Below, piece by piece: positions 39,088-45,724 of a stretch of DNA of 64,000 nucleotides. The notes beneath the pieces are model-generated. The model saw only the letters and a list, made by a program, of their open reading frames with translations, searched no databases and was not told the origin of the DNA. Position 1 is the stretch's first letter. Each line of letters starts with the position of its first letter. The stretch is from Sulfurimonas sp. (GTDB lineage Bacteria; Campylobacterota; Campylobacteria; Campylobacterales; Sulfurimonadaceae): NCBI RefSeq assembly GCF_026196735.1, contig NZ_JAPHUF010000012.1, forward strand, positions 1 to 64,000, read 5' to 3'. Position numbers and translations under genes: made by a program.

Positions 39088-40314
39088 ATGGAATATAAGC
39101 AATTAGATAAAACAACTATTATTGATTATCTTGAAAATATACAGAGTGTTAGGGAGTTTTTTCTCTCTGATACGATAGAAGCAGATGAGATTGGAGATGG
39201 TAATCTTAATTTTGTATATATAGTTAAATCACTAGACGATCCATCAAAAGCTTTGATAGTCAAACAAGCAGTTCCATACCTTAGATGTGTTGGAGAAGAT
39301 TTTCCTCTTGGCCGTGAGAGAATGACTTATGAGATTAGAGCGCTTGAGAAATTTTACAGCATATTTCCAAACTTTGTGCCTCGTATTTACCACTCAAATG
39401 AGGATATGAGTCTGGTTGTGATGGAGTTTTTGGATAATCATGTGATTATGAGAAAAGGGCTTATTCAGAGTGTTAAATATGTGAACTTCTCAGAGCAAAT
39501 ATCAACCTACATGTCAGCTATGCTTTTTTATACATCATCCCTTGCCTTGGGCAGCTCAGAAAAAAGAACTTTGATAGACAGGTTTAACTCAAATACGGAA
39601 CTTTGCAAGCTCACAGAAGATTTGGTTTTTAGTTTTGCATTTATGGAGCATGAAACAAATGATAATGAAAATGTAAAAGATAATCCTCATGCCAAAAAGC
39701 TTTTTGCAGATATGGAGCTTAAAGAGAAGGTCTTGGACCTTAAATACAAGTTTATGACGCAAAATGATGCACTTCTTCATGGTGATTTGCATACGGGCTC
39801 TATAATGATAAATGAGGAAGAGACTTATGTCATTGACCCTGAGTTTGCATTTGTAGGTCCATTTGGTTTTGACATAGGCGCACTGCTTGCAAACTTGGTT
39901 AACAACTATATTCATCACTGTGTAGTCACTAAAGATGAAGAGTTTAAAGAGTGGCTCTTAGAAACAATAAAAGAAGTGCTTGATAAATTTTCTGAAAAGT
40001 TTTTAAACTTTTGGAGCGAACATAAAGATTCTGCGCTTTTAGTCGATGGTTATATGCAAGCAAACTCATTAAACAACTATAAAATCAGGTTTGTAAAAAA
40101 TATTTTAAAAGACAGTGTCGGATTTGCCGGATGTAAAATGGCAAGAAGAGTTTACGGTGTCGCTGGGGTAGAAGAGATTCGTGGTATTGAAGATATAACT
40201 CTTAGGCATGAGGCTGAAGCACTCTGCCTTGAAATAGCAAGAGAGTTCATAATGAAGTACGAAACCATAGAGAGCACAGATGAAATATTGGAGATAATAA
40301 GAAATGCTGGGTAA
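39088..40314 (+). CDS. mtnK: S-methyl-5-thioribose kinase
   Basis: GDGNLNFVYIV, ALLHGDLHTGSIMI, DPEFAFVGPFGFDIGALLAN. Confidence 0.9.
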   Translation: MEYKQLDKTTIIDYLENIQSVREFFLSDTIEADEIGDGNLNFVYIVKSLDDPSKALIVKQAVPYLRCVGEDFPLGRERMTYEIRALEKFYSIFPNFVPRIYHSNEDMSLVVMEFLDNHVIMRKGLIQSVKYVNFSEQISTYMSAMLFYTSSLALGSSEKRTLIDRFNSNTELCKLTEDLVFSFAFMEHETNDNENVKDNPHAKKLFADMELKEKVLDLKYKFMTQNDALLHGDLHTGSIMINEEETYVIDPEFAFVGPFGFDIGALLANLVNNYIHHCVVTKDEEFKEWLLETIKEVLDKFSEKFLNFWSEHKDSALLVDGYMQANSLNNYKIRFVKNILKDSVGFAGCKMARRVYGVAGVEEIRGIEDITLRHEAEALCLEIAREFIMKYETIESTDEILEIIRNAG

Positions 40315-41419
40315 ATACAGAGCTTTATGGCTAAATAAAGACGGATTTTTAGAGGTAATTGACCAGACTAAACTTCCGTTTGAGCAGCAAAGCAAAGTAT
40401 TAAAAACAACAGATGAGGTTGTCGAAGCCATTAAAGATATGACTGTGCGCGGCGCTGGGGTTATCGGTAGTGTTGCCGCTTTTGGAATCTATACCGCAGC
40501 TATGGAACTGAATGAAAGCTACAAGGTGAGCTCATCAGAGCGAGAAGGTAGCCTGGGCTATGAAAAACTGCAAGCAAAAGCTTTACTTATAAGAGAATCT
40601 CGCCCGACTGCTGTAAACCTTATGTGGGCAGTTGATAAGATGATGGAATTTTTAAAAAACTCTAATGATTTAGTAAATGATGCTAAAAGATACGCGATTG
40701 AACTAAATGATAAAGAGGCTCTTGAGAGTCAAAAAATAGCAGAGTATGGCTGCGACATAATCGAAAATATTTTAAAAAAGAAAAATAAGACAAAGATAAA
40801 TATACTGACTCATTGTAATGCTGGATGGTTAGCAGTTATAGATGAGGGAACGGCACTAGCACCGATATATGAAGCACAAAGAAGAGGAATTGATGTACAT
40901 GTATGGGTTGATGAGACAAGACCAAGAAACCAAGGTGCATCTTTAACTGCATGGGAACTTACGCAAAGCGGTATAAATCATACAATCATAGCGGACAATA
41001 CGGGCGGACATCTTATGCAAATAGGTGAAGTCGACATGGTCATAACCGGAGCAGACAGAGTAAGTGCCAACGGTGATGTTGCAAACAAGATAGGAACATA
41101 CCTAAAAGCATTGGCAGCATATGACAACAATGTTCCTTTTTATGTGGCTATTCCGGCTTCAACCTTTGATTTTGATATAATAGATGGATTAAAAGATATT
41201 CCTATAGAACTTAGAAGCGCAGATGAGGTAAGGTGCATAAAAGGTGTTGATGCAGACGGCGTTATACGAGAGGTCCTTATAACTCCAAAAGATTCACCTG
41301 CAATTAACTATGGTTTTGATGTGACTCCTGCAAGATTGATTACAGGGCTTATAACAAATAAAGGGGTTTGCGAAGCAGACTTTGATAAAATTAAAGAAAA
41401 ATTTATAGTAGAAAAATAA
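40304..41419 (+). CDS. mtnA: methylthioribose-1-phosphate isomerase
   Basis: TVRGAGVIGSVAAFG, RPTAVNLMWAVD, THCNAGWLA, GADRVSANGDVANKIGTY. Confidence 0.93.
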   Translation: MLGKYRALWLNKDGFLEVIDQTKLPFEQQSKVLKTTDEVVEAIKDMTVRGAGVIGSVAAFGIYTAAMELNESYKVSSSEREGSLGYEKLQAKALLIRESRPTAVNLMWAVDKMMEFLKNSNDLVNDAKRYAIELNDKEALESQKIAEYGCDIIENILKKKNKTKINILTHCNAGWLAVIDEGTALAPIYEAQRRGIDVHVWVDETRPRNQGASLTAWELTQSGINHTIIADNTGGHLMQIGEVDMVITGADRVSANGDVANKIGTYLKALAAYDNNVPFYVAIPASTFDFDIIDGLKDIPIELRSADEVRCIKGVDADGVIREVLITPKDSPAINYGFDVTPARLITGLITNKGVCEADFDKIKEKFIVEK

Positions 41420-43731
41420 TGAAAATAATAGAAATAAAAAAGAAAGTGCCAAAATTTTTAATATTGCCATTGATAGTTTTATTGATTTTATCAATCTACT
41501 CAGGTCTTGATAAATACCAGGAAAAAGAACAGCTAGTTGTACTAAAGGGGTATATAGTATTTAGTAAATTGGCAACCGACCTTATACATGAATTACAAAA
41601 AGAAAGAGGTTTAAGCTCCGGTTTTTTAGCTTCAGGCGGAAAATCTTTTACTGATGAGTTAAACAAGCAAAGAGATTTAACAGATATAAAAATACAACTG
41701 CTCAACAAACACTTAGACAGTGAAGAGTACGAAAAATGTAAATTTCCATTTGAAAAACCAACCAAAGAACTTCTTGAACCATTAAAAGATATCGGTAAAT
41801 TTAGAGCAAACATTGATAAACTTTTAGTTTCTGATGTTATAGATTATTACACAAACTATATAAATATCCTGCTCAAGCATATTAATATGATAATTGCACT
41901 TGCAAATGATGGTGAACACGCAATTTTAGTGGAGTCATATATTGCAATTATGGATATCAAAGAGAAAGCCGGCATAGAACGCGCATTGATAAACAAAATT
42001 TTTGGGCTGGGACATTTGTCAAATTATGAACTTTATAAATTTGGAGAGTTGGTTGCCGCTCAGGAAATATATCTGAAACATTTTAAACGCATAGCAAAAA
42101 AAGAGCATATTGAAATGTTTAATACTAAAGAAGTTGAAGATAGTTTTAAAGAAGTTGAAGAAGATAGAAATATAATATATGAAAAAACCGATAAAAATTC
42201 TGTTTTAACAGAGATAAAAGAGCTTATAGGATACGGAGGACTTATCCATAATTTTAAAAATTATGTTATTCGCGGAGAAGATAAGTATGCACAAAATTTT
42301 CAAAAGCAATACTCTGAGTTAGAGATAATAATAAACAAATATAAAGCATTTAAGGGGATTACGGTTGAAGAAATTCAGCAGTTAGAGATTATACAAAATT
42401 TATTTGCACAATATTTCAACGGTATGCAAATGGCGATGGAAGCTTATGCAAAAGGAACCACGGCGCTTGCTATAGATAAGCTTATTAAACTAAACGACTA
42501 TCCGGCAATTGATGCATTTAATCATTTGAAAACAAATATATATGGATCACAACAAAATTGGTTCAAACACTCTACACATAAAATAAATTTATTAAAAAAG
42601 ATTGAAAATAAGATTGTGTCAGATTTAATGGTTTTTACAGATGAGAGAAAGATAGAACTTTTTATTCAGCTGGTAATCCAAATTTTAATATTAATAATCA
42701 TCTTGCTGATAATAATATCATCTTTTATAGTTTTAAAACAGCTTTTAGACTCTCGAAAAATGCTAAGCAGAGCACAGAAAAATACCAAATCAGGCAGCTT
42801 TGAGTATTATGTAGAAGAAAACATAATCTTTTGGTCAGATGAGCAGTATAAACTTCTACAGGTTGATAAAAATACATTTAATCTAACAATAGAGTCTTTT
42901 ATGGAGTTTGTGCATCCAGATGATTTGCAAATTTTTAAAGATAATTTAGAATTATCAATAAAGTCAAAAAAGATAACTTTCTTTGAATATCGTATAGTTC
43001 TTCCAGATAAAACAGTTATACATGTCCGCTCAAGTTCTGAAGTTACCAAGTATACATCTTCAGGAAAACCGCTCGTAATAGTCGGTACTATTACAGATAT
43101 CTCAGACTCTAAAAAACTTGAACAAGAGATTATAGACACGCAAAAAGATGTTATTTTTACAATGGGTGCTATAGGTGAGAGCAGAAGTAGAGAAACCGGA
43201 CAGCATGTCAAGCGGGTAGCGGAGTACTCTAAACTTCTATATCTTTCAAGTGGTGCAACCGAAGAAGAAGCAGAACTACTTAGAATGGCAAGTCCTATGC
43301 ATGACATAGGAAAAATAGGAATTCCCGATAGTATATTAAACAAACCGGGAAAATTGACTCCAGAAGAGTGGGAGATAATGCAAACACATGCTGAACTAGG
43401 ATATGACATGCTTAAAAGCTCAAATAGAGATATTTTAAAGCTTGCTGCAACTGTTGCTCTTACCCATCATGAAAAATATGACGGAGGCGGATATCCAAAA
43501 GGTTTAGTTGGAGAAAACATACCATTAGTCGGCAGGATAACAGCACTAGCAGATGTTTTTGATGCACTTGGCAGTGAGAGGTGTTATAAAAAAGCGTGGG
43601 AACTTGAAGAAATATTGGAATATATAAAACTAAAGAGAGGAACACAATTTGATCCAAAGCTAGTTGACCATTTTCTTAAAAATCTTGATAAGTTTTTAGA
43701 GATAAGAGACAAATATAAAGACATAATTTAA
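41419..43731 (+). CDS. NIT-domain/PAS/HD-GYP receptor (putative cyclic di-GMP phosphodiesterase)
   Basis: NIT-like helical sensor (ELQKERGLSSGFLASGG), PAS region, HD-GYP motif (HDIGKIGIPDSIL ... HHEKYDGGGYPKGL). Confidence 0.82.
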   Translation: MKIIEIKKKVPKFLILPLIVLLILSIYSGLDKYQEKEQLVVLKGYIVFSKLATDLIHELQKERGLSSGFLASGGKSFTDELNKQRDLTDIKIQLLNKHLDSEEYEKCKFPFEKPTKELLEPLKDIGKFRANIDKLLVSDVIDYYTNYINILLKHINMIIALANDGEHAILVESYIAIMDIKEKAGIERALINKIFGLGHLSNYELYKFGELVAAQEIYLKHFKRIAKKEHIEMFNTKEVEDSFKEVEEDRNIIYEKTDKNSVLTEIKELIGYGGLIHNFKNYVIRGEDKYAQNFQKQYSELEIIINKYKAFKGITVEEIQQLEIIQNLFAQYFNGMQMAMEAYAKGTTALAIDKLIKLNDYPAIDAFNHLKTNIYGSQQNWFKHSTHKINLLKKIENKIVSDLMVFTDERKIELFIQLVIQILILIIILLIIISSFIVLKQLLDSRKMLSRAQKNTKSGSFEYYVEENIIFWSDEQYKLLQVDKNTFNLTIESFMEFVHPDDLQIFKDNLELSIKSKKITFFEYRIVLPDKTVIHVRSSSEVTKYTSSGKPLVIVGTITDISDSKKLEQEIIDTQKDVIFTMGAIGESRSRETGQHVKRVAEYSKLLYLSSGATEEEAELLRMASPMHDIGKIGIPDSILNKPGKLTPEEWEIMQTHAELGYDMLKSSNRDILKLAATVALTHHEKYDGGGYPKGLVGENIPLVGRITALADVFDALGSERCYKKAWELEEILEYIKLKRGTQFDPKLVDHFLKNLDKFLEIRDKYKDII

Positions 43732-43762
43732 AAAAAGTAATTAAATAAAGGAATATTTATAG

Positions 43763-45724
43763 ATGAGAAGTTTATATAGTGATAAAGAAGCGAGTGAGTT
43801 TAAAACAGACTTAGATTTAAGGGTTTATACATCTAGACTTCTTGGACGAGATTCTTCTTTGGTTTTGCATGGTGGTGGAAATACTTCTGTAAAATCTACT
43901 GCAACAAACCTTTTTGGCGAAACAGAAGATATACTATATGTAAAAGGGAGTGGTTGGGATTTAGCAACTATTGAAGCAGAGGGTTTTGCTCCGGTTAAGA
44001 TGGAGATGCTTTTAAAAATGGCAGAGTTAAAAGAGCTAAACGATACAGACATGGTAAAGTACCAAAGACTTGCTATGACAAATCCCTCCGCTCCAAATCC
44101 GTCAGTTGAAGCAATCTTGCATGCTATCATCCCTTTTAAATTTGTAGATCATACGCATACTGATGCTGTTGTTACCATCACAAATACACAAGGCGGTGAA
44201 GATAAAATAAAAGAGCTTTACGGAGATAAAGTTCTTGTTATCCCTTATATCATGCCGGGTTTTGTTCTTGCAAAACTGATATATGACATGACAAGAGATG
44301 TTGACTGGTCACAGCTCGAAGGCATGGTTTTGATGAATCATGGTCTTTTTACATTTAATGACGATGCAAAGAAATCTTATGAGAAAACTATTGAGTTAGT
44401 TGATAAGGCAGAGAAATATTTAGCGGATAAAGGCGCTGTGTTAGATGTTAAAGAGACTAACACTAACACAGATTTGTTAGTGTTAGCAAGAATAAGAAAA
44501 GAAATCTCAAATCTAAAGGGCAAGGCGACAATAAGTATTTTAAATAATAGTAGTGAAGCAGTGTATTTTTCAAAACAAAATATAGACAACATCGCTACTC
44601 AAGGCCCTCTCACCCCTGACCATGTTATAAGAACAAAAAGAATTCCCGCAATTTTAGGAAATGATTTTGAATCAGATTTAGCAGAGTATATCAAAGAGTA
44701 TAAGCAGTACTTTGAAGATAATAAAACAAACGAGACACTTCTAAATCCTGCCCCAAATTTTGCAATATTAAGAGGTGAGGGAAGTCTCTCTTTTGGTGCT
44801 AATGCCAAAGAAGCAAATATCATCAAAGATATAAATGAGCATACTTTTGAAGCGATTTTAAAAGCTGAGATGCTTGGCGGATATAAAGCTTTGAGTGCTG
44901 CAAATATTTTTGAAGTTGAGTACTGGAGTTTGGAGCAGGCGAAATTAAAAAAAGCTGGAAATGCACCTGAGTTTAGCGGACAAGTAGCAATAGTTACCGG
45001 AGCTGCAAGTGGAATAGGTTTGGCAATTGCTAAAATGTTGAACTCAAGAGGCGCAGCAGTTGTGGCACTTGATATAAATCCTGAAATTACAAATATTTTT
45101 AATAAAGCAGATATGATTGGCGTTCAATGTGATTTGACATGTAGTGAAGATATACAAAATGCCGTGTCAATTGCACTAAAGAGTTTTGGTGGAATCGATA
45201 TAGTTGTAAGTAATGCCGGTATCTTTACACCTAGTGAAAACTTAGACTCTTTAAGTGATGAGAACTGGCAAAAAAGTATGGATATAAATCTTACCTCACA
45301 CCAAAAACTCATAAAAGAAACAGCACCGTTTTTAAAGCTTGGAATTGATGCTTGTATAGTTATGGTAGCTTCTAAAAATTTCCCGGCTCCAGGAAAAGGT
45401 GCAGCTGCTTACTCTGTTGCAAAAGCAGGGCAGACTCAACTAGCTCGCATTGCAGCTTTAGAACTTGGTGAGTATGGAGTTCGAGTAAACACTCTTCATC
45501 CTCATGCAGTATTTGATACGGCTATTTGGACAGATGAAGTTTTAGCTAAGCGTGCTAAGGCTTACGGCATGAGCGTTGATGAGTACAAAACTAACAATGT
45601 TTTAAAAACTGAAATTTGTTCAGAAAATGTAGCAGAGTTAGTATGTGCTATGGCAGGAAAACCTTTTGCAAAAACAACAGGCTCTCAAGTTGCAATAGAC
45701 GGCGGGAGCGATAGAATAATATAA
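43763..45724 (+). CDS. bifunctional class II aldolase / short-chain dehydrogenase (RhaD/RhaEW-like fusion)
   Basis: Class II aldolase domain (LVLHGGGNTSVK, HTHTDAV, MNHGLFTF) fused to SDR (VAIVTGAASGIG, YSVAKAGQTQLARIAALELG). Confidence 0.87.
   Translation: MRSLYSDKEASEFKTDLDLRVYTSRLLGRDSSLVLHGGGNTSVKSTATNLFGETEDILYVKGSGWDLATIEAEGFAPVKMEMLLKMAELKELNDTDMVKYQRLAMTNPSAPNPSVEAILHAIIPFKFVDHTHTDAVVTITNTQGGEDKIKELYGDKVLVIPYIMPGFVLAKLIYDMTRDVDWSQLEGMVLMNHGLFTFNDDAKKSYEKTIELVDKAEKYLADKGAVLDVKETNTNTDLLVLARIRKEISNLKGKATISILNNSSEAVYFSKQNIDNIATQGPLTPDHVIRTKRIPAILGNDFESDLAEYIKEYKQYFEDNKTNETLLNPAPNFAILRGEGSLSFGANAKEANIIKDINEHTFEAILKAEMLGGYKALSAANIFEVEYWSLEQAKLKKAGNAPEFSGQVAIVTGAASGIGLAIAKMLNSRGAAVVALDINPEITNIFNKADMIGVQCDLTCSEDIQNAVSIALKSFGGIDIVVSNAGIFTPSENLDSLSDENWQKSMDINLTSHQKLIKETAPFLKLGIDACIVMVASKNFPAPGKGAAAYSVAKAGQTQLARIAALELGEYGVRVNTLHPHAVFDTAIWTDEVLAKRAKAYGMSVDEYKTNNVLKTEICSENVAELVCAMAGKPFAKTTGSQVAIDGGSDRII

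Follow-up and report, generated by a model that had tools for sequence, protein, structure and literature searches.

A class II aldolase fused to a short-chain dehydrogenase as the probable end of a DHAP-type shunt in Sulfurimonas

Introduction

The chemistry of DrdKIA and Ald2 yields dihydroxyacetone phosphate (DHAP) together with acetaldehyde or 2-(methylthio)acetaldehyde (PMC6079011, PMC5893883), and the dehydrogenase that ends the published DHAP shunt is a putative, unknown alcohol dehydrogenase (PMC5893883). An aldolase fused to a short-chain dehydrogenase/reductase (SDR) has been described in RhaEW of Chloroflexus, which oxidises its aldehyde with NAD+ and shows no reductase activity (PMC3870299). 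In this study, we analysed a 64,000-nucleotide stretch of Sulfurimonas sp. DNA (contig NZ_JAPHUF010000012.1, assembly GCF_026196735.1; hereafter the window), in which mtnK and mtnA, encoding methylthioribose (MTR) kinase and MTR-1-phosphate isomerase, are followed by a gene for a class II aldolase/SDR fusion. Gene content and its distribution among relatives suggest that this is probably a DHAP shunt variant whose aldehyde-handling enzyme is fused to the aldolase. No paper describing such a fusion with mtnK or mtnA was found in the literature searched.

Results

The window's genome (G000; 2.19 Mb, 25 contigs) is Sulfurimonas-like, and the closest named relatives of the locus are Sulfurimonas (88% protein identity). 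The features of the locus are as follows:

39088..40314, + strand: mtnK, MTR kinase (TIGR01767, 489 bits, cut-off 275; matches to PDB 2pyw and 2olc)
40304..41419, + strand: mtnA, MTR-1-phosphate/5-deoxyribose-1-phosphate isomerase (TIGR00512, 409 bits, cut-off 279; match to PDB 2yrf)
41419..43731, + strand: NIT-PAS-HD_GYP sensor, 770 aa (PF08376, PF08447, PF13487)
43763..45724, + strand: class II aldolase/SDR fusion, 653 aa (NF006196, 1037 bits, cut-off 831)
43763..44962, + strand: aldolase half of the fusion, residues 1-400 (conserved residues; Foldseek top match 3m4r)
44972..45724, + strand: SDR half of the fusion, residues 404-653 (TGxxxGxG, D437, S537, Y550, K554; SDR folds in PDB)

MtnK aligned end to end with the MTR-kinase-like chain 2pyw and also with 2olc, and MtnA carried the GADR and CNAG motifs. 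An earlier note on this DNA, made from the sequence, had reported both genes with an 11-bp overlap, and the overlap is exactly 11 nt. It had also placed the fusion next to these genes on the same strand; identity and strand held, but direct adjacency did not, because the HD-GYP gene, omitted in that note, lies between mtnA and the fusion: it overlaps mtnA by 1 nt, and 31 nt separate its end from the fusion. This gene encodes a c-di-GMP-type regulator and lies inside the mtnA-aldolase operon in few relatives only; of the loci examined, L026, L034 and L035 alone have it at this position. Around the operon, predicted promoters and terminators were no more numerous than in shuffled sequence.

The fusion contains PF00596 at residues 21-219 and adh_short at residues 407-590, and its match to NF006196 spans positions 1-657 of the 657 in the model, indicating full membership. 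In the aldolase half, the predicted catalytic residues N40 and E116 and the predicted metal ligands H130, H132 and H193 were kept in all proteins covering those positions. The SDR half has the glycine motif, the NAD-type Asp D437, N484, S537, Y550 and K554. An AlphaFold2 model (mean pLDDT, a per-residue confidence score, 77.7; pTM, a global one, 0.77) had the class II aldolase domain 3m4r as its best PDB match, followed by many SDR folds. The model confirms the two predicted folds, which concerns fold only and has no bearing on substrate.

The earlier note had related the fusion to rhamnulose-phosphate aldolase fusions. The kinship in architecture and family with RhaEW, a rhamnulose-1-phosphate aldolase/lactaldehyde dehydrogenase, was borne out, but the score against the rhamnulose-aldolase model TIGR02632 (444) fell under the cut-off of 567.75. 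That the protein is an ordinary RhaEW lying by chance near mtnK-mtnA is therefore very improbable: the linkage to mtnK-mtnA is conserved, RhaEW is reported always inside rha loci (PMC3870299), and the rhamnose isomerase RhaA was found in 0 of 121 Sulfurimonadaceae genomes (the window's genome and 120 relatives), our main genome set, which speaks against the rhamnose operon that the earlier note had named as a counter-indication.

The order mtnK-mtnA-fusion was present in about twenty other Sulfurimonas loci, with a gap between mtnA and the fusion of usually -50 to +4 nt, and most relatives lacked the HD-GYP gene. This recurrence is more than chance. In G237 and G241, a single seven-gene run encodes an ABM protein, an autoinducer-2 (AI-2)-type kinase, a second MetK, MtnK, MtnA, the fusion and MqnE. 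The same set is split in the window's genome, where ABM, kinase, MetK and MqnE lie on contig C11 (L110) with no aldolase there, and mtnK-mtnA-fusion lies in the window. In MtnK-bearing relatives without the fusion (sister genera), a 199-207-aa class II aldolase-family protein overlapped mtnA by 1-4 nt at 9 of 9 loci, and it is probably another shunt aldolase. This protein (L078-L083, L085-L087) scored below every curated NCBIfam cut-off. An assignment as MtnB was rejected, since no score exceeded about 35 bits where the cut-offs are 137 to 281, and it stays a class II aldolase-family protein. In Beta- and Gammaproteobacteria, the fusion adjoins methylthioadenosine (MTA) phosphorylase, Apt and MtnA (L051), MTA phosphorylase (L049) or MtnA (L044, L047, L050); these loci represent the same route in a version that uses the phosphorylase. 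In addition, a plasmid of Shinella sumterensis (L109:6001-14034) carries mtnK-mtnA and, about 4.5 kb away, a more distantly related aldolase/SDR fusion, together with ABC transporters for sugars; this is possibly an uptake version of the pathway.

The intact fusion occurred in 11 of the 121 genomes, all 11 with MtnK and MtnA. MtnK itself was above the cut-off in 21 genomes, with one further partial copy, so that it was present in 11/11 intact-fusion genomes and 11/110 others (Fisher p 5.5e-10). The co-occurrence across Campylobacterota that the earlier note had proposed to look for was thus found. In G158, G004, G024, G259 and G260, MtnK and MtnA were present though not adjacent to the fusion; the last four are Campylobacterota outside the Sulfurimonadaceae set, with an intact fusion and both genes unlinked. 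Outside Campylobacterota, 8 of 11 fusion genomes had MtnA, and the remaining three are drafts. The nucleosidase MTAN was encoded in 113/121 genomes, including the window's (TIGR01704, G000:C13:14985-15665, 188 bits, cut-off 73.8). MTA phosphorylase was found in none of the 121, and a search for MtnD gave 0/121, the window's genome included; this genome-wide search did not cover mtnB, mtnC and mtnE. For MtnD, MTAN and MTA phosphorylase, this is the genome check that the earlier note had called for.

SDR residues were intact in all fusions covering them from MtnK-bearing or proteobacterial genomes, with one exception, a glycine-to-alanine change in L109. They were lost in 10 of 10 MtnK-less Campylobacterota genomes (G007, G207, G213, G225, G227, G251, G253, G274, G276, G277), in all of which the aldolase site remained intact. 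On the aldolase tree, SDR breakage involved about 8 changes, at least 6 of them on well-supported branches, and matched MtnK loss in 6/6 independent contrasts on such branches (p 0.031). Five of the six intact-versus-broken pairs showed SDR identities of 44-59% and aldolase identities of 76-84%, and in the sixth (L034) the catalytic site was deleted recently. Pairs of intact fusions were 79-93% identical in both halves. Sequencing error was ruled out for most cases, the draft L034 excepted, because the frames stay open, the catalytic residues are lost by substitution or in-frame deletion, and the cases include the one-contig G227 and the five-contig G225. The decay in MtnK-less genomes, as read from these sequences, ties the SDR half to the MtnK-MtnA route.

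Decayed SDRs were found at two types of loci, near a siroheme decarboxylase (L090, L091, L093, L095) and near the AI-2-type kinase, MetK or MqnE (L034, L038, L043, L092, L094). The remnants of L094 and L043 are still 93% alike, so the remnant may have a function other than catalysis. At L092:6340-9066 (G227), the aldolase, a decayed SDR and the radical-SAM (S-adenosylmethionine) protein MqnE share a single 908-codon open frame.

The decay also bears on whether the PF00596 half could be an MtnB-like dehydratase feeding methionine salvage. MtnB shares its fold and metal site with these aldolases. However, MtnD was absent from the main set, the fusion matches aldolase/SDR models over its full length, and an aldehyde product would best explain an attached dehydrogenase that is repeatedly co-lost; we regard a dehydratase as a highly unlikely identity for this half.

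The aldolase, fused or not, and an AI-2-type kinase were both present in 77/121 genomes, with the aldolase only in 6 and the kinase only in 2 (Fisher 4e-22). The kinase of the window's genome lies at G000:C11:64787-66346 (875 bits, cut-off 528). A stand-alone, SDR-less 391-aa aldolase, forming one clade on the tree, adjoins the kinase and an ABM gene. This ABM (LsrG-like)-aldolase-kinase operon, its kinase above the AI-2 cut-off, is widespread in Campylobacterota (L058-L071, e.g. L061:5684-8715; G000:C11, L110:7496-11655, the G000:C11 version without the aldolase), in many cases along with MqnE and a second MetK. No LsrF was found in the Campylobacterota kinase loci read, and the operon resembles a route for degrading AI-2-type sugars in which a class II aldolase replaces LsrF. 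Relatives of the fusion do stand beside LsrF on a Shinella plasmid (L106) and in a deltaproteobacterium (L055), which fits the AI-2 link, yet the fusion is not always an LsrF substitute. On the plasmid, from Shinella sp. H4-D48 (L106:5053-13261), genes for an ABC transporter and an FGGY kinase accompany lsrF and the adjoining fusion, which shares 42% identity with that of the window.

The aldolase-kinase co-occurrence, together with the lack of a second aldolase copy (E<=1e-60) in intact-fusion genomes, suggests that the enzyme may serve two routes, one alone making an aldehyde. The aldolase half might then mainly serve the AI-2-type pathway (LsrK-like kinase and LsrG-like ABM protein, needing the aldolase only), and the SDR half would add the MtnK-MtnA substrates 5-deoxyribose and methylthioribose. 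In Campylobacterota, the fusion would be the common exit of these two SAM by-product routes, and loss of the MtnK-MtnA route would let the SDR decay while the aldolase stays. The SDR-less aldolases beside the kinase and ABM gene, the ABM-LsrK loci of intact-fusion genomes without an aldolase, the single run in G237 and G241, and the aldolase surviving loss of MtnK and SDR all favour this idea. Against it, L042 retains a stand-alone copy alongside the fused one, and class II aldolase action on phospho-AI-2 is putative. We consider a common exit a tentative proposal, plausible but somewhat short of an even chance.

Discussion

We consider it fairly probable that mtnK, mtnA and the fusion represent the DHAP shunt in its kinase version, with the SDR oxidising the released aldehyde. 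MTAN, encoded elsewhere in the genome, would split 5'-deoxyadenosine or MTA, and MtnK would phosphorylate the released 5-deoxyribose or methylthioribose. MtnA would isomerise the sugar phosphate to its ribulose-1-phosphate form, which the metal-dependent aldolase half would cleave to DHAP and acetaldehyde or 2-(methylthio)acetaldehyde. The SDR in the same polypeptide would then use NAD+ to convert the aldehyde to acetate or (methylthio)acetate. We propose this sequence of cleavage and NAD+-dependent oxidation from the chemistry of DrdKIA and Ald2 and from the oxidation carried out by the same architecture in RhaEW.

The earlier note had left open whether the SDR reduces or oxidises the aldehyde. 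Its homology to RhaEW and its NAD-type Asp suggest oxidation, not reduction. The same pathway could instead end with NADH-dependent reduction to ethanol or 2-(methylthio)ethanol, as in Rhodopseudomonas, where an unidentified dehydrogenase yields 2-(methylthio)ethanol (PMC5893883), and in E. coli, which forms ethanol from 5-deoxyribose aerobically (PMC10986504). Given the NAD+ dependence of Chloroflexus RhaEW and its lack of reductase activity, we think this direction unlikely.

Both by-product sugars could be substrates. Campylobacter spermidine is made via carboxyspermidine, a route that gives no MTA, and 5'-deoxyadenosine is a product of radical-SAM enzymes, MqnC among them; for these reasons, we infer that 5-deoxyribose is the likelier main natural substrate. 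Consistent with the former, C. jejuni has carboxyspermidine decarboxylase (PMC7857480).

Several points weigh against the proposed shunt. The window's mtnA and fusion are split by an unrelated regulatory gene, and methionine salvage was assessed genome-wide through MtnD and not through mtnB, mtnC or mtnE. When the draft L034 is set aside, the sign test on SDR decay gives 5/5 (p 0.0625), and many of the contrasts lie inside one genus. Because the aldolase half tracks the AI-2-type kinase more widely than MtnK, it may act chiefly on some other phospho-sugar. For the Rhodopseudomonas shunt, the inferred dehydrogenase reaction runs the opposite way, as a reduction to 2-(methylthio)ethanol (PMC5893883).

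Comparative genomics (no MtnD, no RhaA, MTAN present, operon co-occurrence) nevertheless supports the earlier suggestion of a possible one-polypeptide end to a DHAP-type shunt for MTR or 5-deoxyribose. Rather than replacing full methionine salvage, as the earlier note further suggested, the shunt appears to dispose of SAM by-product sugars by turning them into DHAP. The fusion would provide a candidate for the shunt's missing dehydrogenase, attached to the aldolase, which makes the step testable in one purified protein, and Campylobacterota would gain a disposal route for the 5'-deoxyadenosine of radical-SAM enzymes. The family name "rhamnulose aldolase" would mislead annotation and is corrected here.

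Compared with the known DHAP shunt and 5-deoxyribose disposal (MtnN-MtnK-MtnA-Ald2; DrdK-DrdI-DrdA), the system has MTAN in the genome, linked MtnK and MtnA, no MtnD, and a class II aldolase with a metal site (E116, H130, H132, H193) linked to mtnA, a linkage taken from relatives since one gene intervenes in the window. It differs in that its aldolase is of a different, longer type with its own dehydrogenase attached, whereas the published shunts have a separate, unidentified one (PMC5893883, PMC10986504, PMC6079011). The absence of MtnD also sets it apart from canonical methionine salvage. With RhaEW (PMC3870299), it shares the two-domain architecture, the family, the NAD-type SDR and the DHAP-plus-aldehyde logic, but its partners are mtnK/mtnA or mtnP/mtnA, with no rhamnose isomerase or rha locus, and it stays under the TIGR02632 cut-off; the window's fusion shares about 37% identity with homologues on rhizobial plasmids. 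The aldolase half co-occurs with an AI-2 kinase and an LsrG-like ABM gene, a feature shared with Lsr/AI-2 catabolism (LsrK, LsrG, LsrF), but the Campylobacterota kinase loci read have a class II aldolase and no LsrF. Finally, the fusion belongs fully to the bifunctional aldolase/short-chain dehydrogenase family NF006196 (PRK08324.2-4), which is without an assigned substrate and for which we propose one here.

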